Translations under genes and position numbers: made by a program | IMG/VR virus record: IMGVR_UViG_3300032049_000001 | Span: 1-26,519 of that record | Source of the DNA: a virus | Reading direction: 5' to 3' (one strand) | Length of the DNA stretch: 26,519 bases | The notes under the pieces: model-generated | What the model was told of the DNA's origin: nothing | Databases searched by the model: none | The model's input: only the letters and a program-made list of their open reading frames with translations | Shown: one piece after another, positions 4,254 through 25,524 of the stretch | Layout: every line of letters begins with the position of its first letter | Numbering within the stretch: the stretch's first letter is position 1

Positions 4254-5729
4254 ATGCTCGATCCGCTCGCGAACGTTCACGACCACACCGGCGATCGAAA
4301 GTGGGCGCACTGTCCGAATACGATTCGCGCTCACTACGAGGCGCTTGATCGCGTAATTGACCTCGCGCACAACGAACCGTACACTGGCCACGACTTCGAC
4401 TTCGGAGTCGTTTACGTCGGTGGCGGTCGATATTGGCCTGGCATCGTAGTCGGTGTTCGACTATTGCGTCACGTCGGCTATCGCGGACCGATCGAAGTCT
4501 GGCGTGGTCACTACGCAGACGAAGAACCGATTCGCGAATCCGATCTAGACGGCTACGACGTTCGCATCGTCGATGCACGCGAAGTTGCGAAGACGACGCG
4601 GCCACGTATTCTTCGCGGCTGGGAAGCGAAGCTGCATGCGATCCGGCACACGAGGTTTCGTCGTGTACTTTTTCTCGACGCGGACGCGTACTGCGTCGTC
4701 GATCCGACGCCGTACTTCGATCGCTTTTCGGACTTCGCGTTTTGGAGCGAAAATCGACAGAATATCCGCTGGCACTACGTCTGGCCTTCGCACGATCGAC
4801 GCGACGTAGTCGGCGTGCAAGGCGGTCAGTTTTTCGTTGATCGCGAGAGCTCGTGGCCACTCGTTGTCATTGCGGATTGGATTTGCCAGCATAGCGACTT
4901 CTACTTCCAGCATCTCTACGGTGATCAAGACGCGTGGCGACTCGCGATTGCGATTACGGAGTCGCCGTACACGATCGTTGGGCCAGCGACGTGGCAGCAT
5001 CCCGCGTTCGTGTGCTCGCTCGACAATCGAAGGTTCGTAGTGCATCGTCCGGTCTCGAAGCTCTTCCGCGCATGCGATTGGAATGCTCGCGACTGCACAG
5101 TCGATTTCGCGCCGCATTTACCGTTCGAGACGTTCGTGTGGCGCGAGTTCGCAAAATTCGCCGAACACGAAGTCGAGGAGTGCGAACCTGCATTCACAAG
5201 TCTCTATCGACGTGGCGCGACGCGTGTCTTCGACTCGCCATCGGTGGACGATCGTACATATCTTGCATGCATTGAGACTTTAGCTAAGACGCACAGTTGG
5301 ACTAAGATTGTCGATCTTGGGTGCGGCAACGGTCGGATCACGAAGGAGATCGCGCGTCGAACCGGAGTCGAAGTCGTTGGTCTCGACTGCGTGCACGAAA
5401 TACTACCGGAGAGCGACCTATCGAATCTTCGCTTCGAGTACGCGAACGCGTTCGAGATCGACTCGATTCCCGATGGCGATGCGTTACTCGTGAAGGACGT
5501 TCTCGCGTACTGGCCGTTTGCACACGTCCGCAGTTGGTTGCGCGAAGTCATGACGCAATCGAAGTGGCGACACGTCGTGATCACGAACGATGTCACGCAG
5601 TTCCCGTCCGAGATGCCGTTCGGCCGACACCACGGGATCAACCCCGAGCTTTGCGATTTTTTGCATGAGATCGCGCATGTGCAAATTCGCCTAGAAAACA
5701 AGGCAATTTTGCTGATTTTCGTTCGATGA
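4254..5729 (+). CDS. Glycosyltransferase-methyltransferase fusion protein
   Basis: This 491-aa product has two apparent enzyme domains. Residues 50-290 look like a GT-A-fold nucleotide-sugar transferase: 'GVVYVGGGRYWPGIVVGVR' resembles the opening strand and helix, and 'VLFLDADAYCV' holds a DxD metal/nucleotide-sugar motif (D142-A-D144), as in alpha-mannosyltransferase-like enzymes. Residues 340-491 look like a class I SAM-dependent methyltransferase, with motif I 'VDLGCGNG' (353-360), an acidic residue after the next strand ('VVGLDC') and a motif IV-like 'DALLVKDVLAYW'. A GAGG ribosome site precedes ATG 4254. Its place directly after the putative receptor-binding gene suggests modification of that protein or of a host surface glycan. 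The domains are seen in sequence; the substrate is unknown. Confidence 0.7.
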   Translation: MLDPLANVHDHTGDRKWAHCPNTIRAHYEALDRVIDLAHNEPYTGHDFDFGVVYVGGGRYWPGIVVGVRLLRHVGYRGPIEVWRGHYADEEPIRESDLDGYDVRIVDAREVAKTTRPRILRGWEAKLHAIRHTRFRRVLFLDADAYCVVDPTPYFDRFSDFAFWSENRQNIRWHYVWPSHDRRDVVGVQGGQFFVDRESSWPLVVIADWICQHSDFYFQHLYGDQDAWRLAIAITESPYTIVGPATWQHPAFVCSLDNRRFVVHRPVSKLFRACDWNARDCTVDFAPHLPFETFVWREFAKFAEHEVEECEPAFTSLYRRGATRVFDSPSVDDRTYLACIETLAKTHSWTKIVDLGCGNGRITKEIARRTGVEVVGLDCVHEILPESDLSNLRFEYANAFEIDSIPDGDALLVKDVLAYWPFAHVRSWLREVMTQSKWRHVVITNDVTQFPSEMPFGRHHGINPELCDFLHEIAHVQIRLENKAILLIFVR

Positions 5730-9797: not shown

Positions 9798-10982
9798 ATG
9801 CGTGCGCGATTCCAATCGGATCTCGTTCGCGATCGACTTCGCGCGATACGGTCGATCGTACGCGAGGTCGTACTCGAGCGTCGGATCGTTTTCGTGGAGG
9901 CTCGCGATGGGAAGTTATCGTTTTCGACGCGTAGCGGTATCGCAATCGGCGAGATTCGGTTCGATGCCGACGATAAGAAGGTCGTAATCGAAGAGGAGGG
10001 CGCAGCGGCGTTCGATGCGAACGAGTTCGTATCGTCGATCGATCGCGCCGCGGGCGAGGTCGTAGAGATCGCGAATGGCCCGGATCGAGACTATATTCGC
10101 TTCACGGCGACGGAGTACGCGTTTCCACGTGCGTGTGTCGCTTCGCTCCCACATGTCGCGCATTCGGATCACGATCGAGTTAGCGTTTCGTCTTCGGAGT
10201 CGCCGGTCGTTCGTTTCGCGTTCGAGCTCGAGGGTATTTTCGCTCGCACGGTTTTCGCGTCGAAGTCGAGCGTGCAGTCGAAGTCGCGGTTCGTTCTTTA
10301 TCGAAGCGGAGCGAGTGGCCTCGTCGTTTTCTCGACTGACGAGAAGCGATACGCGATCGTTCGCAGTCGCGTGGATGCAGACACGGAGTCGAAGGTTTTA
10401 GCGTATCTCGATTACGATTCTGCGGTGCTTGCGCACTCGTTCCTCGACTCTTCGGACGAGCGGGTAGAGGTAGGCGTGGATACGAACGGCTGGCTTGTGC
10501 TGGCGGGTGAGTCGTTTAGCGTTGGCCTTGCGACGTTATCGGTACCGAATAACGGCCATCGCTTTCTCGATTTCGATCGCAAGTTTCGCGCTCGTGTGCA
10601 TCGTGCGGCCACGATCCCTTACGAGTCGTTCGTTCGGGCGTATCGGAGTATCGAGCCGGTTATATCGAAGGAGTGGCGCACGATCGGGTTCGAGTTCGGC
10701 GAGTCTTCGGTTACGCTTTCTGCGACTTCGGATCTCGGCGTGTCTGCGAAGTCGCGAGTCGATTTCGAATCGATAGTGCCTACGAATTTGCGAACCACGA
10801 TCTATCTCGACTCGAAGTACGTAGGCGATTTTCTTGCGGCGGTGCGCAGGGTCGTATCCGCGGAGGCGCTCGAATCGACGAAGATCGTATTCGAGCGCGA
10901 GGAGGATTCGAAAGGTATCGTATTCTTCGGAATCGAGTCGGACGACTGGCGTTACGGGATGATGGCGATTAGTCGAGACTAA
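9798..10982 (+). CDS. DnaN-like sliding clamp
   Basis: The 394-aa product reads as a three-domain bacterial beta clamp. Domain 1 starts with 'LRAIRSIVREVVLERRIVF', then 'DGKLSFSTRSG' and 'FDANEFVSSIDRA'. Domain 3 ends with 'LDSKYVGDFLAAVRRV' and a final strand 'WRYGMMAIS', which corresponds to 'YVVMPMRL' at the end of E. coli DnaN. The length is close to the family's 360-390 aa. Clamps encircle DNA and tether polymerases and other enzymes, and E. coli DnaN uses its C-terminal cleft for partner peptides. A perfect AAAGGAGGT ribosome site lies seven bases before ATG 9798. No clamp loader is recognised here, so the host loader would have to act on it. The likeness is seen by eye, not by search. 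Confidence 0.65.
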   Translation: MRARFQSDLVRDRLRAIRSIVREVVLERRIVFVEARDGKLSFSTRSGIAIGEIRFDADDKKVVIEEEGAAAFDANEFVSSIDRAAGEVVEIANGPDRDYIRFTATEYAFPRACVASLPHVAHSDHDRVSVSSSESPVVRFAFELEGIFARTVFASKSSVQSKSRFVLYRSGASGLVVFSTDEKRYAIVRSRVDADTESKVLAYLDYDSAVLAHSFLDSSDERVEVGVDTNGWLVLAGESFSVGLATLSVPNNGHRFLDFDRKFRARVHRAATIPYESFVRAYRSIEPVISKEWRTIGFEFGESSVTLSATSDLGVSAKSRVDFESIVPTNLRTTIYLDSKYVGDFLAAVRRVVSAEALESTKIVFEREEDSKGIVFFGIESDDWRYGMMAISRD

Positions 10983-13246: not shown

Positions 13247-13942
13247 ATGTCGAAAACGAGTGCGCATCGATTCGTTATCGAGAGTACGCAGTTCGCAAAT
13301 CTTGAGCGTGCGTTATCGGTCGCGTTGCCGGCAGCGAAATCGTTGGGCGTCGATGCTGGCATCTTTTGGCTGCGCTATTCGATTTTCGCGGCAACGCCGT
13401 ACGCTTCGATTGGACTTGCGAGCTGCGATCTCGAGCTCGAAGAGTTGCCGGAGTGCATCGCGATTTCGCAGCTCGCTGCGAGGGCATTTCTTTTCGAGTT
13501 GCAAACGCATCGCGTTCGTTATCTCGAGAGGATCGACTTCGTGGCTACGCGAGACCGAGTCGTCTTTTCGTTCGAGTACGATCGAAAGTCGAAGTCGAGT
13601 ACGCCGCCGTTGTTCTCGCGTTATTCGAGTTCGTGGCGCCCGCGGACGACGCCGCGCGAGTACTACGAGTTACTGACCGCGCATCGACCTTACTTCGAGT
13701 GCACTCTAGCGACGAGAGAGATACGAAAGAAGTTGCGAGGCCACGAGGATTACGGCTACGTCGTACTCGAGGATTTTCCGGACGTTATCTCGCACGTTAC
13801 GGTAAGTCGTTCTCTTTTAGTCGCGTTTCTCGAGGCAGCGAAGGACGAAGACACGACGTTTCGACTCGAGTACTACGAAGGTCAGCGTTGCGTCGTCTGT
13901 CGTGCTGGCGATGTGATTGCGATCTTATCCGTAATCGACTAG
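13247..13942 (+). CDS. Unknown protein, possibly a second clamp-like (PCNA/gp45-sized) protein
   Basis: The 231-aa product follows a GGAGGG ribosome site. I do not recognise a named family. The pattern of alternating strands with short helices, such as 'ISQLAARAFLFELQTHRVRY' followed by strands, and 'VSRSLLVAFLEAAKD' followed by 'TTFRLEYYEGQRCVVC' and a final strand 'VIAILSVID', resembles a two-domain sliding clamp. The length equals that of T4 gp45 or PCNA (about 230-260). A basic Ser/Arg/Pro-rich loop (about 110-135) interrupts the middle. It lies between the methyltransferase terminator and thyX, in the DNA metabolism block. Clamp ancestry is only a suggestion from secondary-structure reading. 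Confidence 0.3.
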   Translation: MSKTSAHRFVIESTQFANLERALSVALPAAKSLGVDAGIFWLRYSIFAATPYASIGLASCDLELEELPECIAISQLAARAFLFELQTHRVRYLERIDFVATRDRVVFSFEYDRKSKSSTPPLFSRYSSSWRPRTTPREYYELLTAHRPYFECTLATREIRKKLRGHEDYGYVVLEDFPDVISHVTVSRSLLVAFLEAAKDEDTTFRLEYYEGQRCVVCRAGDVIAILSVID

Positions 13943-13955
13943 TGCGAGGTTCGCT

Positions 13956-14876
13956 ATGCGCGTTTACGTTCTCGGTCGATCGATCTTAGACGAGCGCGAA
14001 CTCGAACGATTCTTGCGCGATCACGGCATCGCGTGGCCGCGTGACAATGCGATGTCATCTAATCTCCCTGGGCCCAGGGAAAATGGTGACAGTTCGACGT
14101 CAGTAGTTTCGTCTGGGCCCGGGGAAAGTAATGACAGTTCGATGTCAGCGGTTTCGTCTGGGCCCGGGCGGATTTGTGACAGCGAGGTGTCAGCGGAGGT
14201 GTTGTGTGAGGTGGCCGGTCGAGTTTGCTACATGTCGTTCGCTCGACCGCGTCCCGGTGGCAACCGGGCGTATCTTGAGCACATTAAGGAGTCGGGGCAC
14301 GGCTCGGTGCTGGAGCACGCTGTGTGGAACCTGTTGATCACGGGCGTCAGTCGTAGTCTCACGCACGAACTCGTGCGACACCGCGCCGGTTTCTCGTATT
14401 CGCAACTCTCGCAGCGTTACGTGGACGAGTCGAACGCAGGGTACATCGAGCCGGACATCATCGCATCCGACGCCGAGTTGCACGTCGTGTGGTCGAAGGC
14501 GGTTCGATGTGCGCATGAAGCCTATAACCAACTCGTTCGACTTATCGAAACGAAACTAAAAGATCGGTCATTCGCATCGCGGTGGCTGCCGTCGTACGCT
14601 ACGGCAACGGATCGCAGGAAGTTAGCTCGGCAGGCGGCGCGCAGCGTTTTGCCGAACGCCACGGAAACGAAGATCTTCGTCACGGCCAACGCGCGGGCGC
14701 TGCGTCACTTTCTCGAACTGCGGGGCAGTCGGCAAGCTGAACCGGAAATCCGCAAGCTAGCCAACATCTTGCTCGAGGTCCTTCAACGAGAATCGCCTCA
14801 TCTGTTCGGCGACTATCGGCGAATTCCACTGCCCGACGGCACATTCGAGATCGTCACCGACTACCGCAAAGTGTAA
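13956..14876 (+). CDS. thyX: FAD-dependent thymidylate synthase ThyX with an internal repeat insertion
   Basis: The 306-aa product makes dTMP from dUMP using FAD, NADPH and methylene-folate. Motifs visible are 'CYMSFARP', 'ESGHGSVLEHA' and the ThyX signature 'RHRAGFSYSQLSQRY' (R141-H142-R143). The signature has one residue more than the textbook RHRX7S spacing. The N-terminal 'MRVYVLGRSILDERELERFL' matches the start of the long bacterial ThyX type as I recall it, so ATG 13956 is real. Between that start and 'VLCEVAGRVCYMSF' lies an extra segment, residues 30-79, built of 15-residue repeats rich in Ser, Gly and Pro. This segment is probably a disordered surface loop. The gene supports nucleotide supply for replication. 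A terminator-like structure and control region follow it. Confidence 0.9.
   Translation: MRVYVLGRSILDERELERFLRDHGIAWPRDNAMSSNLPGPRENGDSSTSVVSSGPGESNDSSMSAVSSGPGRICDSEVSAEVLCEVAGRVCYMSFARPRPGGNRAYLEHIKESGHGSVLEHAVWNLLITGVSRSLTHELVRHRAGFSYSQLSQRYVDESNAGYIEPDIIASDAELHVVWSKAVRCAHEAYNQLVRLIETKLKDRSFASRWLPSYATATDRRKLARQAARSVLPNATETKIFVTANARALRHFLELRGSRQAEPEIRKLANILLEVLQRESPHLFGDYRRIPLPDGTFEIVTDYRKV
14041..14200. repeat. 45-bp tandem repeat array with TGACA-N6-TGTCA palindromes inside thyX
   Basis: Units start at 14041, 14086 and 14131, with a partial fourth at 14176, at an exact 45-bp period. Each starts with GTGACA or ATGACA and has a 16-bp dyad, TGACA-N6-TGTCA. Three dyads are perfect (14042, 14132, 14177) and one has CGTCA (14087). 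The first three units then carry a shared GGGCCC core with GGG close after it. The period equals 15 codons, so the thyX frame is kept. The even spacing of dyads looks like iterons or regulator-binding sites embedded in a gene. Confidence 0.85.
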
Positions 14877-16342: not shown

Positions 16343-16963
16343 ATGCCGAGAAGACTTAGTTGGGACGAAGTATCCGCATGCATCGACCGCGAATCGGTCG
16401 AGCGATACGGTCGCTATTTACGCGGCGTCGTCGAAGGCGAGACTTACGTTCCGAAGGCGACCACGACGCCGAGCCTCGTGAATCGCACGATCGTGCTCGG
16501 CGTGGTCTACGACTGGTGTCGGCATCGCTATCGGCACCGACCTTTCGCCGTCGTTATCCGCGCATTCTCGTGGTGTGCGCGATTCTGCTATCCTTTTCAT
16601 CCCGTCTTCGCTCGTTTCGGTATCGAGAGCGAAGACGTAATCGAAGCGCTCGAGTGGATCGCGACCGACTCGTATTCGTTTCGTTTCGCGCCAGCGAGCT
16701 ACGGTGTTACGATCGTTAGCGAGCATCGAGACGGCGATCGTCGAGCGCGGCACTATTTCACGCCAGTGCCCCTCGTGGCCCCGGGTATCGACGACCCGAC
16801 CGCGGTGCCGTTTCGACTCCGCATGGCGACGCGACTCGTAATGGAGGCCGCACTTCGCGCGATCTGCGTGGTCGATGACGACGGCAACTACGACGAGATC
16901 GCGATCCGCGCAACTGTGCGCGATCTCCTCGAGGTCGCAGCACCGCTCGCAACTCCGAACTAG
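16343..16963 (+). CDS. Hypothetical protein
   Basis: The 206-aa product follows GGAGG. It is not recognised. It starts with 'MPRRLSWDEVSACIDRESVERYGRYL', has a Trp/Cys/Arg-rich middle ('VYDWCRHRYRHRP', 'SWCARFCYPFHP') and ends with a helical region ('ATRLVMEAALRAICVVDDD'). The cysteines do not form a clear zinc motif. It is the last gene before the terminator at 17028 and therefore ends the small-gene operon. Confidence 0.6.
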   Translation: MPRRLSWDEVSACIDRESVERYGRYLRGVVEGETYVPKATTTPSLVNRTIVLGVVYDWCRHRYRHRPFAVVIRAFSWCARFCYPFHPVFARFGIESEDVIEALEWIATDSYSFRFAPASYGVTIVSEHRDGDRRARHYFTPVPLVAPGIDDPTAVPFRLRMATRLVMEAALRAICVVDDDGNYDEIAIRATVRDLLEVAAPLATPN

Positions 16964-17350: not shown

Positions 17351-17418
17351 TCGATTTTCTCTAAACTCTTCTTGCTTCGACTTCGTCTCTTAGGTTAGAC
17401 TAACTACGGGGCGAGGTC

Positions 17419-17631
17419 GTGAACGAAGCTGCTCTCGGTGATACGCTACGCGAGATTCGCGTGGCCGCAGGCGCGGTCCGCGAATCGTCTACGAAAATTG
17501 CGACCGCGGTCGAACACGCAAGTAGCGCTGCAATCTCCGCGGCATACTTCGCCGGAGTGCGCGACGGATGTGTTGCGTGTACGATCGTGTTGGCGTTGCT
17601 GTACTTTGTTCTGACTCGCTTTAGACGGTAG
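17419..17631 (+). CDS. Small single-pass membrane protein (holin-like candidate)
   Basis: The 70-aa product starts with GTG at 17419 after GGGGCGAGG. Residues 1-45 form an amphipathic Ala-rich helix. One membrane helix follows at about 48-66 ('VACTIVLALLYFVLTRF') and ends with RR, so the N-terminus is probably outside or in the plane of the membrane. Small proteins like this next to a secreted or anchored hydrolase are often holins or spanin-like lysis helpers. The next gene is a membrane-anchored protease. The membrane helix is seen; the lysis role is inferred. Confidence 0.5.
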   Translation: MNEAALGDTLREIRVAAGAVRESSTKIATAVEHASSAAISAAYFAGVRDGCVACTIVLALLYFVLTRFRR

Positions 17632-17638
17632 GTGTAGT

Positions 17639-17662
17639 CGCGGGTCCTTCCTGGGTCCCGCG
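17639..17662 (+). other. GC-rich hairpin before the protease gene
   Basis: CGCGGG/CCCGCG arms enclose a T-T mismatch and two further C-G pairs (CC/GG) with a short pyrimidine-rich loop. No U-tract follows. It may slow transcription or protect the mRNA end of the protease gene. Confidence 0.4.
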
Positions 17663-17726
17663 CGAAACCGGTGGCCGGCGAGCAGCTTCGAAAATTGATT
17701 AGTCCGTCTTCGGAGGAACGATTTCG

Positions 17727-18518
17727 ATGCGCATTTCGATTCCCGAGCCGTGGCGATCGATTCTTGTTGCGGTCTTGACCGCGTTACTCACAGTTATTGG
17801 CGGTGGCACCGCGGTTCACTTTGGTTGTGTGCGCGTACCGCCGCAAGACGAGAAGCGCGGTGACAAGGAGAAGTCACCGCGGCCGGACGACGACAAACCG
17901 GCGGCGAATCCGTGCGACGCGATCGCGAAGATTATTATGACCGGCGGCTACTGCAGTGCGACGATCGTAGGTCCGAAGCGTGACGACGGTAGGTGGTATC
18001 TCGTGAGTGCGGCGCACTGTCATCGCCGCGTCGGCGAAGAGGTGACGGTCGTGTTGCGCAACGGCATCTCGTTCGGCGCGCGTGTCATCGCAATCAATCG
18101 CAAGTCCGACTGCTCGATCTTACTGACGGACGATCGTCACGACAAGCTGCCGTGGTTACGCGTTGCGGAGTCGTACGGGGTCGGCGATAAGGTCTTTCAC
18201 TGCGGTTACGGCGTGCATATTCCGGGCAATCGCGAGGACGGCTACGTCGTAGCGAAGGAGAACGCCGACCTTCAGGTTCGCTATCGCTTATCGGTTTCGC
18301 AGGGCGATAGCGGCGGTGGGATTATCGCGACATCGACTGGCGAACTCTTGTCGCCGGTCTGCTGTACGACTCGCTTGAACGGCGTCGGCGACGTGTGGGG
18401 CGCCTCACCGCGAGTTATTCGTTCGATGCTGACGCACCCGGCGCACTACTCGGACGATCTAAAGCCGATTGCGATGCCAGTGCGTGACTTAGGAGAGACT
18501 AAGAGCGATGGCAGCTAG
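17727..18518 (+). CDS. Membrane-anchored trypsin-like serine protease
   Basis: The 263-aa product has an N-terminal membrane segment at residues 11-32. A charged Pro/Lys/Asp linker (about 36-60) and an S1-type protease domain (62-250) follow. The catalytic triad is visible: His97 in 'VSAAHC', Asp128 in 'KSDCSILL' and Ser195 in 'QGDSGGG'. Several cysteines could form disulphides outside the cytoplasm. This is not a prohead protease, because that activity is fused to the capsid protein and this enzyme would be exported. It follows a small membrane protein, and no lysozyme, amidase or transglycosylase is recognised anywhere in the genome. A role in envelope breakdown at lysis is therefore plausible but unproven. 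It overlaps the terminase gene by 11 nt. Confidence 0.85.
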   Translation: MRISIPEPWRSILVAVLTALLTVIGGGTAVHFGCVRVPPQDEKRGDKEKSPRPDDDKPAANPCDAIAKIIMTGGYCSATIVGPKRDDGRWYLVSAAHCHRRVGEEVTVVLRNGISFGARVIAINRKSDCSILLTDDRHDKLPWLRVAESYGVGDKVFHCGYGVHIPGNREDGYVVAKENADLQVRYRLSVSQGDSGGGIIATSTGELLSPVCCTTRLNGVGDVWGASPRVIRSMLTHPAHYSDDLKPIAMPVRDLGETKSDGS

Positions 18519-20496
18519 GACGATCGAAGAGTACGCGTGTGAAGTCGCCGACGATTCGCTGCGTCGGCGACGTGTTATTTTGCGTGCTCGTGAGATCGGA
18601 CCGCTGCCTGAGGTTGCGCATCCACGTCGGCGTGCGCGAGCGAGTCGATCGATTCTCGAGTGGTGTCGCGCGTATCTACCGTCGGTTTTCTCGCTGCCGT
18701 TTTCGGACGCGCATCGATCGATCGCCCGGAAGTTCGAAGAGGTCGTTCTTCGTGGCGGTTGCTTCGCGTACGCGATGCCGCGCGGAAGCGGTAAGACTTC
18801 GCTTTCGCTCGCGACTGCGTTGTGGGCAGTCTTGCACGGTCACGCGAAGTACGTACTCGTAGTGACCGCGAACGGTCAGCGCGCGCGACAGACGATCCAG
18901 AATCTTATTCTCTGGCTGACGACGGCGCGCGAGCTCATCGAAGATTATCCCGAAGCGTGTTACCCGATTCTGCGCGCCGACGGCAGTCTTCAGCGCATGC
19001 GCTTTCAGCTTTTCGACGGCAAGCCGACGCATCTTCGACTTACGTTCGATCGCATTGTACTCGCGTCGATCGATGGTTCGAAGTGTTCTGGCGCGCTCAT
19101 TCAGTCGGTGCCGCTCCGTGGCGGTTCGTTGCGTGGTCTGCAGCACGCGTTGCCCGACGGCCGACTCGTGCGGCCGCAACTTATCCTGATCGACGACCCG
19201 CAAACACGCGACAGCGCGATGTCACCGCGCCAGTGCGAGTATCGGCGTGCGCTCATTCAGTCGGACATCCTCGGCACGATGGCGCACGACCACAAGGCCG
19301 CGGTGCTTTGCACGTGCACTGTCATCCGTCGCGGCGATCTCAGCGATCAGTTGCTGTCGCTCCCCGAGTGGAGCGGCGAGCGGATCGGTCTACTTCGTTC
19401 GATGCCAACCGATATGGTGGCATGGTCGGAGTACGAACGTGTTTATCGCGAAGCGATCCGCGTGCGCGACTACCAGCGCATCAACGATTACTACCTCGCG
19501 CATCGTGCGCAGCTCGATGCCGGTGCGGTGCCGTTCTGGGAGGCGTGTTACGATCCGCGCATCGAAGTATCTGCAATCCAACACGCGATGCATCTTTACT
19601 TCCAGGATCGTAACGCGTTCTATTCGGAGTACCAGAACGAGCCTGCAGCGAACGTCGTTGCGGACGATTCGATCGCGATCGCGCCGGAGTCGGTTGCGTC
19701 TGCGTTCGGCGATTTCTCGATCGCGCCGTCGGAGCGAGTCGGGATTTACGTTGACGTTCAGGAGCGGATTCTCTACTACGCGGTCGTTGCGCGCGAGAAC
19801 GACCGTGTGCGTATGGCGTTTTCGACGTGGCCGGAGCAGCATGCGAATTACTACTCGGCGTCGCGCCCGGCGCTATCACTCGAAGGCTTTTATCGCATCA
19901 CGGCGCCACAGTCGATCGAACGAGGCCTGCACGACTTACTCGCGCAGCTTCGCGTTCGCTATCCGAATAGCTTCGTGCTCGTGGACGCCGGTTATCGCAG
20001 TGACATCGTATCGGCAGTGACCGCGATACACGATCGCGTCTATCCGGCTTACGGTCGTTACGTCGGTGCGCGATCGAAGTCTTCGGTCGTTGAGCTGACG
20101 AAGCCGGGCGACGTAACAGGCAACGCGTGGCGCATGACGCGCGATCCGGACCGCGCCACGACGAGTGTGCTGATCGATACGAACCGTGCGAAGACGAGTG
20201 TTGCGAATCTCTTCGCATCGTCTTCGGTCGAGATCGCGCGAACAGTCGATGCACCGGTCGTGATCGAGCATCTCACGTCGGAGACCGGCGTGGCTACGCA
20301 GTCGATCTGGCGGCAGTGCGTCGAATGGACGCTTTTGCCGGCACGTGAGAACCACTACTTCGACTGCCTCGTGGGCGCGCTCGTTGCGCGCGAGATTTTC
20401 GATTCGCTCGAGTCGACTACGTCTTCGACTTCGGATTCGAGTTCGAACTGGCTACTCGAAGGACTACTTCGTTATCGTGCGAGGGCGATGTCATGA
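18508..20496 (+). CDS. Terminase large subunit (gpA-like)
   Basis: The 662-aa product has an N-terminal ATPase with Walker A 'PRGSGKT' (91-97) and Walker B 'LILIDDPQ' (D229-D230). A C-terminal RNase H-like nuclease follows, with acidic residues in 'VGIYVDVQ', 'FVLVDAGYRSD' and 'NHYFDCLVGALVA'. These parts power DNA translocation into the head and cut the concatemer. The length fits lambda gpA/GpA-like terminases. No separate small subunit was recognised, although the unknown genes just upstream leave room for one. It opens the head operon and overlaps both neighbours (protease by 11 nt, gpW by 4 nt). Confidence 0.9.
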   Translation: MAARTIEEYACEVADDSLRRRRVILRAREIGPLPEVAHPRRRARASRSILEWCRAYLPSVFSLPFSDAHRSIARKFEEVVLRGGCFAYAMPRGSGKTSLSLATALWAVLHGHAKYVLVVTANGQRARQTIQNLILWLTTARELIEDYPEACYPILRADGSLQRMRFQLFDGKPTHLRLTFDRIVLASIDGSKCSGALIQSVPLRGGSLRGLQHALPDGRLVRPQLILIDDPQTRDSAMSPRQCEYRRALIQSDILGTMAHDHKAAVLCTCTVIRRGDLSDQLLSLPEWSGERIGLLRSMPTDMVAWSEYERVYREAIRVRDYQRINDYYLAHRAQLDAGAVPFWEACYDPRIEVSAIQHAMHLYFQDRNAFYSEYQNEPAANVVADDSIAIAPESVASAFGDFSIAPSERVGIYVDVQERILYYAVVARENDRVRMAFSTWPEQHANYYSASRPALSLEGFYRITAPQSIERGLHDLLAQLRVRYPNSFVLVDAGYRSDIVSAVTAIHDRVYPAYGRYVGARSKSSVVELTKPGDVTGNAWRMTRDPDRATTSVLIDTNRAKTSVANLFASSSVEIARTVDAPVVIEHLTSETGVATQSIWRQCVEWTLLPARENHYFDCLVGALVAREIFDSLESTTSSTSDSSSNWLLEGLLRYRARAMS

Positions 20497-20684: not shown

Positions 20685-22174
20685 TTGGGTGGCTGCGTCG
20701 AGTCTTCAGTACAAGTGGCAACGCGTCGTCATCGCGAGCGGACGTTTCGTTTCGCGCACGTTACGATGCTGCGGCAACGACTCCGGATAACGCGCAGCAC
20801 TGGTCGCAAGCGGATTCGCTATCGCCGTCGGCTGCGCTAACGCCGAGTGTGCGGCGTACACTGCGGAATCGATCGCGTTACGAGGTCGCGAACAACAGCT
20901 ACGCGAACGGCATTGTCTCGACGATCGCGAACTATACGATCGGCACCGGGCCGGTCCTGCAGGTTCGTACTGCGAACGAAGAGCTGAATCTTCGTCTCGA
21001 GCGAGCGTGGTCTGAGTGGTGCGCTGCGGTCGATCTGCCTGAGATTCTGCGCACGATGCGTCGCTGCGTTGTCGTCGATGGCGAGGCCTTCGCGATCCTC
21101 TGCGACTATCCGCGGCAGCGGACGAAAGTCAAGCTCGCAGTTCGACTCGTCGAGCCGGAGCAAGTTAGCGAGGGTCCAGTTTCTGCGCTCATGCAACCGG
21201 TCGAGGGCATCGTCTTCGATGACTACGGAGTACCGGCGGCGTATCACGTTCTGCGGCGACATCCCGGCGACATCGCAGTCGCGGACATCGACTACTCGTA
21301 CGAGACGATACCGGCGGACTCCGTCATCCACTACTTCCATCGCGAGCGACCGGGTCAGTGGCGTGGCGTTCCCGAGATTACGCCGGCGCTGCCGTTGTTT
21401 TCGATTCTGCGTCGATTCACGCTCGCAACTGCAGCCGCAGCCGAGACTGCAGCGAATCTCGCAGCCGTCTTGCAGACCGACTCAGCCGCGTACATTCCGC
21501 GTGATGCGGAGCGATTCGCGCGCGAACTCGTCTGGCAATTCGTCGATCTTCGACCGCGTAGTGCGACCGTGTTGCCACCGGGATGGCGACTTTCGCAGAT
21601 GACGGCGCAGCACCCGACTACGACCTACGGCGACTTTGTGTATCATCTCATGAGCGAAATCGCGCGCTGTCTCAACGTTCCCGTTGTGGTCGCGCTCAAC
21701 GACTCTTCGCGTGCGAACTTTTCGAGTGGCCGGCTCGATCTTCGCAACTGGTATCGCGCACTCGAAGTCGAGCGAGCGCGAATCGAAGCGATCGTACTTG
21801 AGCCGATGTTGCGAGCGTTCTATCGCGAGTGGCGCATTGCTGACAGCGAGGCGTCATCGCTAGTCGGCTTGGGTCGCGAGTTACCGGATCACGAGTGGTA
21901 CTGGCCTGCGCTCGAGGGTGTCGATCCGGAAAAAGAAGCGAAAGCGCAACGCTTGCGTCTTCAGAGCGGTCTTACGACGTTCGCGTACGAGTACGCGAAG
22001 CAAGGTCGTGACTGGATGACCGAGCTGCGTCAGCGAGCGAAAGAGTACGCGCTCGCGAACGAACTCGGTCTCGATTTCCTTTTCGAGAAAGGAGGTAATA
22101 GCGATGCCGAAGACGACGAAAAAGTTTCTTCGGATTCGAGCGAAAGCGAGGATTCGCGCACAGGAGAATCCTGA
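20681..22174 (+). CDS. Portal protein (lambda gpB family)
   Basis: The 497-aa product has the lambda-type portal pattern: 'RNRSRYEVANNSYANGIVST' near residues 61-80, 'YTIGTGPVLQV', 'RRCVVVDGEAFAILCDYP', 'LVEPEQVS', 'IVFDDYGVPAAYHVLRRHPG', 'VIHYFHRERPGQWRGVPEI' and 'YHLMSEIARCLNVPVVVAL'. The portal ring is the DNA entry gate and the nucleation point of the capsid. The C-terminal tail is acidic and Ser-rich and overlaps the start of the protease-capsid gene by 71 nt. That gene's ribosome site AAAGGAGGT (about 22087-22095) lies inside the portal coding region. Confidence 0.92.
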   Translation: MIGWLRRVFSTSGNASSSRADVSFRARYDAAATTPDNAQHWSQADSLSPSAALTPSVRRTLRNRSRYEVANNSYANGIVSTIANYTIGTGPVLQVRTANEELNLRLERAWSEWCAAVDLPEILRTMRRCVVVDGEAFAILCDYPRQRTKVKLAVRLVEPEQVSEGPVSALMQPVEGIVFDDYGVPAAYHVLRRHPGDIAVADIDYSYETIPADSVIHYFHRERPGQWRGVPEITPALPLFSILRRFTLATAAAAETAANLAAVLQTDSAAYIPRDAERFARELVWQFVDLRPRSATVLPPGWRLSQMTAQHPTTTYGDFVYHLMSEIARCLNVPVVVALNDSSRANFSSGRLDLRNWYRALEVERARIEAIVLEPMLRAFYREWRIADSEASSLVGLGRELPDHEWYWPALEGVDPEKEAKAQRLRLQSGLTTFAYEYAKQGRDWMTELRQRAKEYALANELGLDFLFEKGGNSDAEDDEKVSSDSSESEDSRTGES

Positions 22175-23975
22175 AGACGAGCTTGAAGACGAGGACAAGG
22201 ACGAAAACAAAGTTACTGCGCAAGACGAAGAGTCGCAGCCAGAGACTGAGGAAACACAGCCAGCGACTGACGATGTCGCATCAGAGCTAAGGAAAATTCA
22301 GATCGTTGCGTACACCGGTGGTACGATGACGGTCGAAGGTTGGCCACTACCGGTCGTAGTTGATCTCGACGGTCTCGAGATTCCGACCAACTCACTCCCG
22401 ATCCGCTACGCACATGATGAGTATGCCGGTATCGGGCACACAACGAATATCGCGATCGAGGGTAACGAGATCGTTGCAGACGCTGTGGTCTCGCGCGACA
22501 CCGAGTACTCGCGCGACTTTCTCTCGTCGATCGAGAACGGCTTTCCGTGGAAGGCCTCGATCGGCCTCGAGGTCGTCGAGTATCGCGAGATTCCCGACGG
22601 CGCGGAAGTCGAAGTGAATGGCCGTTCGTTTACGGGTCCGCTCTACGTAGTCGATCTCGCCGTGCTGCGCGAAATTTCGATCGTTGATGTTCCTGCAGAC
22701 ATCGGCACGTCAGTCGTGGCCGCGAAAGCCGCTCGGAGGGTTGAAATCGTGAAGCGAATTCTCGGTAAGTATCCGCACCTCGCGGAACGTGCGATCCAAG
22801 AAAACTGGTCCACGAAAAAGTGTCAGCTCGCTGCCATTCGAGCGAGTCGGCCGAGCAGTCGAGTTGTGCATGCGTTCGATGCCAGCGTGGACACGACTGA
22901 GGTTCTTACCGCCGCGATCATGCTCCGCGCCGGCGGTTCGGTCGCGAAGAGCGTCGAGAAGAAGTTCGCGCCGCGGATCGTCGATGCCGCGTCGAAGTAT
23001 CGCAACCTCGGTTTGCTGCAGCTTGCGCGCGAGTGTTTACGACTCGAAGGCCATCGTGTCGATCCGTACTCTTCACCGATGGATGTGATTCGCGCGGCGT
23101 TCAGCGTGCGATCGTTTCCGAATCTCTTACGCGAGTCGGCGTATCGAATTCTCGTTTCGACTTACGAGACGATGCCACCAACGTGTCTGCGAATCTCGCG
23201 TATTGTAGAAACTACAAATTTTATGCCACATACACTTGCTCGACTCAACGCATTCGCGCAATTTGAACGTGTACCACCGAGCGGTTCGATCGCGCAGGAG
23301 CGTATCGGCGATACCGGTTGGCAAGTGAAAGTCGATACATATGGACGGCTGTTCACGATCACGCATCAGGACGTTATCAACGACGATCTCGGTGCGTTCC
23401 TCGCAATTCCGCAGGAAGCTGCGCGTGGTGCGATCATCGCGCTCGAGAATCTCTTCTGGAGCACGGTCGTTGCGAACCCCGGTGGTTTCTTCAGCACCGC
23501 GAACGCGAACGTCGTGACGAGTGCGCCGCTCACGATTCCGAATCTCGATCGCGCTGTCGAGCGAATGCTCGCGCAGACAGACCAATTCGGTCAACCGGTC
23601 TTCGTGAAACCGAGTTTCCTCGTAGTGCCCGTGGGTCTAAAAGCGACTGCCGAGAATCTCTTTACCGGTGTGCGTGTCGTGATTGCGGGCGGTAGCGCTG
23701 AACGCACGTTACCGGAAACGAACGCCTACGCCGGGCAATTCGAGCCGGTCGTTACGCAGTACTTACCCACGAACGGTGCCAATTCAACATGGTACTTGGT
23801 TGCTGATCCAGCAACAACACCAGCATTTGCAGTCGCGTTTCTGCGTGGTCAGGAGACGCCGATTATCGAGGAAGTGCAACCGAGTCCGCAGTTCCTCGGT
23901 TACTCGGTACGCGCCTACTGGCACTTCGGTGTCGCTTTACTCGATCATCGAGCTGCAGTGCGTGCAACAGCGTAA
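22104..23975 (+). CDS. Prohead protease / major capsid protein fusion
   Basis: The 623-aa product has an acidic disordered start (residues 1-60) and then a protease domain of the HK97 U35 type (65-215). Candidate catalytic residues are His104 in 'PIRYAHDEY' and Ser152 in 'WKASIGLEV', and the closing motif is 'LREISIVDVPAD'. A helical link (215-330) may act as scaffold. The capsid domain (330-623) resembles Mu gpT-like major head proteins ('VDTYGRLFTITHQDVINDDL', 'PSFLVVPVGLKATAENLF', 'WHFGVALLDHRAAV'). A single polyprotein thus supplies protease, possible scaffold and shell, and must self-cleave during maturation. No separate capsid or scaffold gene is present. Confidence 0.9.
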   Translation: MPKTTKKFLRIRAKARIRAQENPEDELEDEDKDENKVTAQDEESQPETEETQPATDDVASELRKIQIVAYTGGTMTVEGWPLPVVVDLDGLEIPTNSLPIRYAHDEYAGIGHTTNIAIEGNEIVADAVVSRDTEYSRDFLSSIENGFPWKASIGLEVVEYREIPDGAEVEVNGRSFTGPLYVVDLAVLREISIVDVPADIGTSVVAAKAARRVEIVKRILGKYPHLAERAIQENWSTKKCQLAAIRASRPSSRVVHAFDASVDTTEVLTAAIMLRAGGSVAKSVEKKFAPRIVDAASKYRNLGLLQLARECLRLEGHRVDPYSSPMDVIRAAFSVRSFPNLLRESAYRILVSTYETMPPTCLRISRIVETTNFMPHTLARLNAFAQFERVPPSGSIAQERIGDTGWQVKVDTYGRLFTITHQDVINDDLGAFLAIPQEAARGAIIALENLFWSTVVANPGGFFSTANANVVTSAPLTIPNLDRAVERMLAQTDQFGQPVFVKPSFLVVPVGLKATAENLFTGVRVVIAGGSAERTLPETNAYAGQFEPVVTQYLPTNGANSTWYLVADPATTPAFAVAFLRGQETPIIEEVQPSPQFLGYSVRAYWHFGVALLDHRAAVRATA

Positions 23976-25105: not shown

Positions 25106-25524
25106 TGCCATCGGAGTCGATCGTAAAAGTGAAACAACTCTTTCTCGACCGGCTAGCGGTTACGCGTTACTTCGATCGCAAGACGCTGCGCGTTTTCAAG
25201 CGGTTCGGAGCCTTCGTGCGACTAGTCGCGCAGCGAAGTATGCGTCGGCGTAAGACGCCGTCGCCACCGGACCAACCGCCGTCGGTGCGTAAAGGCCAGC
25301 TACGAAAGTTGATCTTCTTTTCGCTCGATGAGCGAAAGAAGAGCGTTGTCATCGGACCGACACTATTGCGTTCCGATTCGCCGGTGCCAGCGTTGCACGA
25401 GCACAGCGGCGTACGTCGATACGGTGCACGTGTCGCGAAGTATCCGAAGCGCGAGTACATGAAGCCCGCGTTTCGCGAAGGTTTGAAGAAACTGGCGCAG
25501 TTTTATAAGGAGGCGAAATCATGA
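25105..25524 (+). CDS. HK97 gp10-like / minor tail component
   Basis: The 139-aa basic product overlaps the previous stop by one base (TAATG). The sequence 'SVVIGPTLLRSDSPVPALHEHSG' followed by 'YPKREYMKPAFREGLKKL' matches the usual end of gp10/gpG-morphogenesis-type tail proteins (Gly-Pro strand, HEHSG, then a proline and a C-terminal helix). These act at the head-tail interface. The start region is a basic helical arm ('RVFKRFGAFVRLVAQRSMRR'). Confidence 0.6.
   Translation: MPSESIVKVKQLFLDRLAVTRYFDRKTLRVFKRFGAFVRLVAQRSMRRRKTPSPPDQPPSVRKGQLRKLIFFSLDERKKSVVIGPTLLRSDSPVPALHEHSGVRRYGARVAKYPKREYMKPAFREGLKKLAQFYKEAKS

Follow-up and report, generated by a model that had tools for sequence, protein, structure and literature searches.

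The window examined here, the whole 26,519-base stretch of viral DNA in its record, carries a 127-base terminal overlap and is therefore a small tailed phage assembled as a circle. The gene set is siphovirus-like, with a tape measure, tail proteins, terminase, portal, and a head protease-major capsid fusion, alongside a Sak4-like protein, SSB, RusA, a primase-helicase, a DNA methyltransferase, and a thymidylate synthase for replication and metabolism. No integrase was recognized in this phage. Several features elsewhere in the window deserve mention in their own right. The head protease and the major capsid protein are fused in a single reading frame (22104-23975). One protein (4254-5729) combines a mannosyltransferase-like glycosyltransferase (PF11051) with a methyltransferase, occurs beside tail genes in several related phages, and could modify the virion or host surface. 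Three tandem 45-bp repeats lie within the thymidylate synthase gene (14068-14202); DNA alignments of several relatives are interrupted there (14078-14132), and the repeat copy number may vary. The proteins at 9798-10982 and 13247-13942 resemble DNA sliding clamps by eye; the latter type occurs twice in several relatives, and the former has no sequence match in the PDB.

The locus of interest, on the plus strand, consists of a gene for a 70-aa one-helix protein (17419-17631) and a gene for a 263-aa serine protease (17727-18518), directly followed by the terminase large subunit gene of the late operon (18508-20496; PHROG 38, E = 2e-24). Upstream of the small gene lies a promoter-like element of the form TTGnnn-(17/18)-TAGACT (17372-17401), which alignment and pattern matching place in six of seven relatives compared. 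This element was found via alignment and is absent from the output of a generic consensus promoter scan. In three relatives (G014, G017, and G019), it is located upstream of the cos site and the protease instead.

The two genes are separated by a probable cos site, the 12-nt sequence GGCCGGCGAGCA (17673-17684). Close relatives contributed seven contigs, drawn from seven metagenomes, that all begin at the position equivalent to window 17684-17685, placing their shared left end 41-43 bases upstream of the protease gene. The right ends of two contigs (G013 and G443) correspond to window 17671-17672, and the intervening 12 bases are absent between the right and left ends of the linear contigs. Such fixed ends near the terminase gene, seven left and two right with a 12-nt gap, are those of cos-type packaging in Caudoviricetes, and at least nine contigs from relatives share the site. 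The missing bases are as expected from a cohesive overhang, probably a 3′ one judging from the contig ends. The window 'circle' thus represents a linear, cos-ended genome after its ends have joined. Because cos lies between the genes, the protease is the leftmost gene on packaged DNA and the small gene the rightmost, as seen in the 25,406-bp contig G013 (protease at the left end, small gene at 25153-25362), and the two become adjacent only after the DNA joins.

We then considered what the protease sequence reveals about its activity and location. The first-pass annotation had described a membrane-anchored S1 protease with an intact triad, and this description holds. The catalytic region (17952-18347) matches Pfam Trypsin_2 (PF13365), scoring 34.0 bits where the cut-off is 27.6 (and 35.7 bits in the genome search), and contains His97 (18015-18017), Asp128 (18108-18110), and Ser195 (18309-18311), the last within GDSGG. 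The triad is invariant in 12 homologues from three lineages, down to ~35% identity, as are Cys76 and Cys98, which occupy the positions of the chymotrypsin C42-C58 pair, and the adjacent Cys212-Cys213; a C-terminal P-x-x-x-P-x-R motif is present in all but one of the 12. The N-terminal anchor together with Cys34 spans residues 12-34 (17760-17828), with a hydrophobic segment starting at residue 12 (hydropathy 2.27) and a helix at residues 8-26 in the AlphaFold model; nine of the 19 residues at positions 12-30 are Gly, Ala, or Thr. A charged, Pro-containing linker of about residues 35-62 (17829-17911) follows and appears flexible, with pLDDT below 50 at residues 26-54, whereas residues 62-240 are modelled mostly with confidence and adopt an HtrA-like fold.

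The closest solved folds are indeed members of the HtrA/DegS/DegQ (S1C) family, namely H. pylori HtrA, DegS, DegQ, and AlgW, with E-values down to 9e-10. DegS is likewise held by a single N-terminal helix anchor and faces the periplasm. Unlike HtrA/Deg proteases, however, the window protease shares only 14-21% identity with these structures, has the C42-C58-type cysteine pair, and lacks a PDZ domain by both Pfam and the AlphaFold model, its chain stopping ~68 residues past the catalytic serine. Profile comparison with PDB chains gave no match at E ≤ 0.001. Its likeness to the PHROG 9683 'protease' is weak and partial (4.3e-5, residues 91-206), and neither Pfam nor PHROGs matched a peptidoglycan hydrolase catalytic domain in the protein. 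We also rejected its identity as the head protease: the HK97-type prohead protease is likewise a phage serine protease encoded in the late region, but that role is held here by the 22104-23975 fusion, whereas the 17727 protein is membrane-anchored and predicted to be exported.

Homologues of the protease fall into three lineages. Groups A (the window's) and B carry an N-terminal helix and linker, whereas group C proteins start with an evident Sec signal peptide followed by an extra N-terminal domain (Ig-like by eye), a proline-rich linker, and the protease. Given this helix or signal peptide, the protease works outside the cytoplasm, which for the anchored form of groups A and B we infer from the helix. 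Both the protease (dN/dS 0.03-0.08 among close relatives, rising to 0.16 in the most divergent pair) and the 70-aa protein (0.04-0.18) are under strong purifying selection.

The 70-aa protein, read from a GTG start and supported by homologues, was correctly recognized at first pass as a one-helix membrane protein. Its N-terminal ~48 residues look helical and are followed by a single C-terminal transmembrane helix (residues ~50-68, mean hydropathy 2.05) and an RFRR tail. Tape measure aside, it and the protease are the only clear membrane proteins in the window by hydropathy. Being small, with a transmembrane helix and a charged tail, it has the features expected of a holin and is a candidate holin-like partner of the protease. 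Small lysis proteins of the XhlA type have the same build, a helical N-terminus and then one C-terminal transmembrane helix, and a gene of this kind also precedes the lysozyme in one Gemmataceae prophage. In contrast to XhlA-type proteins, neither the 70-aa protein nor its group B homologue significantly matches a known holin or lysis family in PHROGs or Pfam.

The pairing of the small gene with the protease, which had been proposed as a module ahead of the terminase, does recur in related phages. In group B (G024, G028, and G032), a one-helix homologue of the 70-aa protein (28-39% identity) precedes the protease, and the two reading frames overlap by 8, 47, and 8 bases, respectively. In several lineages, the protease has small one-helix genes next to it, with holin-like small genes close to it in G046 and the G452 prophages as well as in the group B pairing. 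The notion of a fixed single module did not survive: the cos site lies between the genes, the intact small gene is about 3-6.5 kb from the protease in G014, G017, and G019 and also kilobases away in G022 (where the protease is on the opposite strand), and no one-helix partner adjoins the signal-peptide protease of group C upstream. The pair is thus recurrent, not universal. An apparently decayed 3′ remnant of the small gene is visible at its old site upstream of the protease in G014, G017, and G019 (L015, L018, and L020).

To place the protease in its wider context, we searched genome contigs, where a profile of close homologues yielded no match and a broader three-lineage alignment identified 15 loci. 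Eleven of these are from Planctomycetota by title (Isosphaeraceae, Gemmata, Gemmataceae, Gemmatales, Fimbriiglobus, and others), bearing out the suspected planctomycete connection; through these relatives, we infer that the window's own host is a planctomycete. Most of the 15 are prophages or phage contigs with homologues of the window's terminase, portal, capsid, tail protein, or tape measure. The protease family occurs in 1 of 392 sampled Planctomycetota genomes and 12 of 95 Gemmataceae genomes, a distribution that led us to reject a host housekeeping gene. It is present as a single copy in 10 of 11 genomes checked, with one copy split in two pieces in the eleventh. The protease is in the main a phage gene, one homologue (L102, in a Fimbriiglobus genome) lying near a host transketolase gene outside a recognized phage module. 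By tblastn with group A and group C queries, no relatives were found in 50,697 GenBank phage records, nor were any found among PLSDB plasmids. A DUF1559 protein with a prepilin-type N-terminal motif, from a family typical of Planctomycetes, is encoded on one related phage contig (likely L078:13253-14639).

The position of the protease differs between lineages: it precedes the terminase in some, follows the capsid gene or the tail module in others, and in group C, one large lineage, stands between the major tail protein and the chaperone of the tail. Every complete relative examined has retained it amid changing neighbours, though these relatives were found through the protease. Gene calls in the relatives were made with a simple codon model and membrane helices were called with a hydropathy window.

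The comparison most informative about function comes from Gemmataceae prophages. Gemmata sp. IIL30 contains a 39-kb prophage whose portal and capsid are unlike the window's and whose tail module ends with the protease, an 84-aa one-helix protein, a 74-aa one-helix protein, and a 68-aa protein. Among the proteins compared, the protease is the sole gene this prophage shares with the window lineage, a weak tape-measure match aside. The same cassette (protease, 84-aa, 74-aa, and 64-68-aa proteins) closes the tail module in three prophages of genome G452, two of which carry a quite distinct head module ahead of it, and DNA identity across the cassette is 83-95% despite the unrelated head modules. 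Elsewhere, homologues of the 74-aa and 68-aa proteins directly follow the protease in L097 (phmmer, 1.6e-11) and L095 (4e-9), respectively. The IIL30 prophage region also contains Pfam matches to ABC-three-component parts (CTD6 and MC2; L120-L122), possibly a carried defence system.

As a control, we searched the same 95 Gemmataceae genomes for phage lysozyme, which was present in 8 of them (16 copies). Four copies are located 18-23 kb past a portal gene on the same strand, and in one scanned prophage the lysozyme matches the PHROG 7 endolysin (7e-52). The portal-to-lysozyme distance in these four prophages (18.3-22.6 kb) is matched by the portal-to-protease distance in IIL30 and one G452 prophage (18.0 and 18.8 kb). 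The neighbours are also alike: in one example, a 65-aa protein with a helix and a C-terminal membrane segment precedes the lysozyme, which is followed by a 66-aa one-helix protein and an Rz-like spanin. Rz-like spanins adjoin the lysozyme in all four prophages. By tblastn, none of the four lysozyme prophage regions contains the protease, and no lysozyme was found in the protease-bearing Gemmataceae genomes. By itself, this genome-level exclusivity is not significant, as zero overlap is expected by chance with P = 0.32; the weight of the comparison lies in the common slot and neighbours, across about eight prophages compared. The Gemmataceae protease thus resembles a holin-endolysin-spanin cassette in sitting at the end of the tail module among one-helix neighbours in place of a lysozyme, but differs from it in that the enzyme is a serine protease and no Rz-like spanin was recognized in the protease cassettes.

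An absence of recognizable peptidoglycan hydrolases, already remarked on in the first-pass annotation, was confirmed by profile scans with PHROGs and/or Pfam of all predicted window proteins and extends to the protease-bearing relatives scanned. No wall hydrolase was present among all 16 Pfam families found in 48 scanned IIL30 prophage proteins, in the unknown genes of two further prophages, or among the matches listed for the unknown proteins of the ~30-kb G022 and G032 (25 of 33 Pfam families) and for group C phages (25 of 38). Two candidates in the window were discarded. One weak match, to PHROG 12278 'tail fiber protein/ lysozyme' (1.9e-5), lies within the tape measure, where many tape-measure matches outscore it, and was set aside as due to coiled or hydrophobic sequence. 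The gene at 16343, which had been raised as a possible divergent endolysin, did not live up to that suggestion: it matches no family, its AlphaFold model has a pLDDT of 57 with no significant Foldseek or PDB profile match, and it is largely deleted in one relative (G011), making it a poor endolysin candidate.

We also asked what such an enzyme might cut. No match to PBP_dimer, of the class-B penicillin-binding proteins, at E ≤ 1e-8 and no MurG above cut-off was found in 95 Gemmataceae genomes, whereas control genomes score. Since none of the 95 scores for either, a protein wall is a plausible target for the protease. Peptidoglycan cross-links cannot be cleaved by a serine protease. The genomic absence agrees with a report that Gemmataceae have cysteine-rich YTV wall proteins and miss most peptidoglycan genes (PMC8567305), but conflicts with the report of lysozyme-sensitive peptidoglycan sacculi in Gemmata obscuriglobus (PMC4432640). 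Eight of the 95 genomes without these markers yet carry phage lysozyme genes, and the occurrence of lysozyme prophages in this family implies that a sugar polymer may be important in certain hosts.

Together, these findings fit best with a role for the protease in breaching the envelope at the end of infection, like that of an endolysin, in planctomycete hosts with a largely protein wall. Late in infection, the protease would attack the host envelope from the outer side of the cytoplasmic membrane, substituting for the peptidoglycan-degrading endolysin of other phages. Transcription from the element at 17372 would proceed through the small gene, the joined cos site, and the protease into the terminase and structural genes. 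In the window lineage, the N-terminal helix would export the catalytic domain via Sec and tether it to the membrane, with the flexible linker giving it outward reach, and the 70-aa protein would act as a holin-like partner whose membrane damage sets the timing or release. Whether membrane-held or secreted, the protease would then cut proteins of the wall or outer layer. SAR endolysins offer a parallel, as their weakly hydrophobic, Gly/Ala/Thr-rich N-terminal anchor both exports and tethers the enzyme. The anchor of the window protease is similar in composition and would fit a signal-anchor-release scheme, but the enzyme class is different and release from the membrane is speculative here.

The proposal that the protease is a lysis or release tool therefore gains from the slot closing the tail module, filled by lysozyme and spanin or by protease, and loses from group C, where the protease sits within the tail genes rather than in a separate cassette, in a slot that is also typical of morons. 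The inability of a serine protease to cut peptidoglycan cross-links, the sacculi reported for Gemmata obscuriglobus, the presence of lysozyme in other prophages of the same host family, and the location of L102 outside a recognized phage module further argue against a lytic role. Because of the group C position, how few prophages were compared, and the computational nature of the reading, we consider the case for an envelope-breaching protease to be evenly balanced. Only tentatively would we advance its stronger form, in which, in phages of planctomycetes without canonical peptidoglycan synthesis, the endolysin has been replaced outright: an exported serine protease would cut a cysteine-rich protein wall with no peptidoglycan hydrolase involved, the one-helix proteins would act as the trigger, and the anchored form would be freed when the membrane collapses.

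Rather less likely, in our judgement, is a function in superinfection exclusion or surface remodelling, with an exported protease degrading receptors or incoming tail proteins as a moron among the structural genes. The movement of the gene between lineages, including its opposite orientation in G022, would fit such a role, and exclusion proteins are often membrane-anchored and exported. Against this, the protease runs with the late genes in most lineages rather than as a separate unit, Gemmataceae prophages have either it or lysozyme, and the window phage has no recognized integrase. Its retention in all complete relatives with a dN/dS near 0.05 points the same way, albeit weakly given how those relatives were found.

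It also seems unlikely that an unrecognized hydrolase is the main lytic enzyme, with the protease as an accessory that clears protein layers in a spanin-like or helper role. Many proteins of the protease phages have no assigned family, and the lack of an Rz-like spanin in the protease cassettes, compared with its presence beside lysozyme, could mean that the protease performs the outer-layer step. However, the Gemmata prophage and the window lineage have little beyond the protease in common, and each lineage would need a separate hidden endolysin; the lack of canonical class-B penicillin-binding proteins in Gemmataceae and the G011 deletion affecting the 16343 protein argue in the same direction. 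A virion-associated protease that aids DNA delivery through the envelope as a tail part is very improbable: the group C protease does lie beside the major tail protein and has the extra Ig-like-looking domain, but a cleavable-type Sec signal peptide in group C and a membrane anchor in groups A and B fit poorly with virion assembly in the cytoplasm. We give least credence to an exit without lysis, which would need no endolysin and in which the protease eases passage or does some other job. In its favour, chronic release that leaves the host unlysed has been reported for a 21.9-kb phage of planctomycete ZRK32 (PMC10945688), and some relatives encode an amidoligase and a glutamine amidotransferase domain resembling the ones named for the ZRK32 phage. 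Against it, full lysozyme-spanin cassettes persist in other planctomycete prophages, which makes it probable that lysis is used by phages of these hosts.

The titles and abstracts we consulted on phage lysis by serine proteases and on planctomycete phages contain no earlier report of protease-based lysis. If an envelope-breaching role for the protease is correct, it would represent a new wall-breaking principle for phage lysis. Whether Gemmataceae and their kin are enclosed by peptidoglycan or by a protein wall is disputed, and if some phages leave these cells by means of a protease and other prophages within the family retain lysozyme, phage tools would directly test what holds the cells together. 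The protease itself would also offer a defined enzyme that can be expressed to open planctomycete cells.
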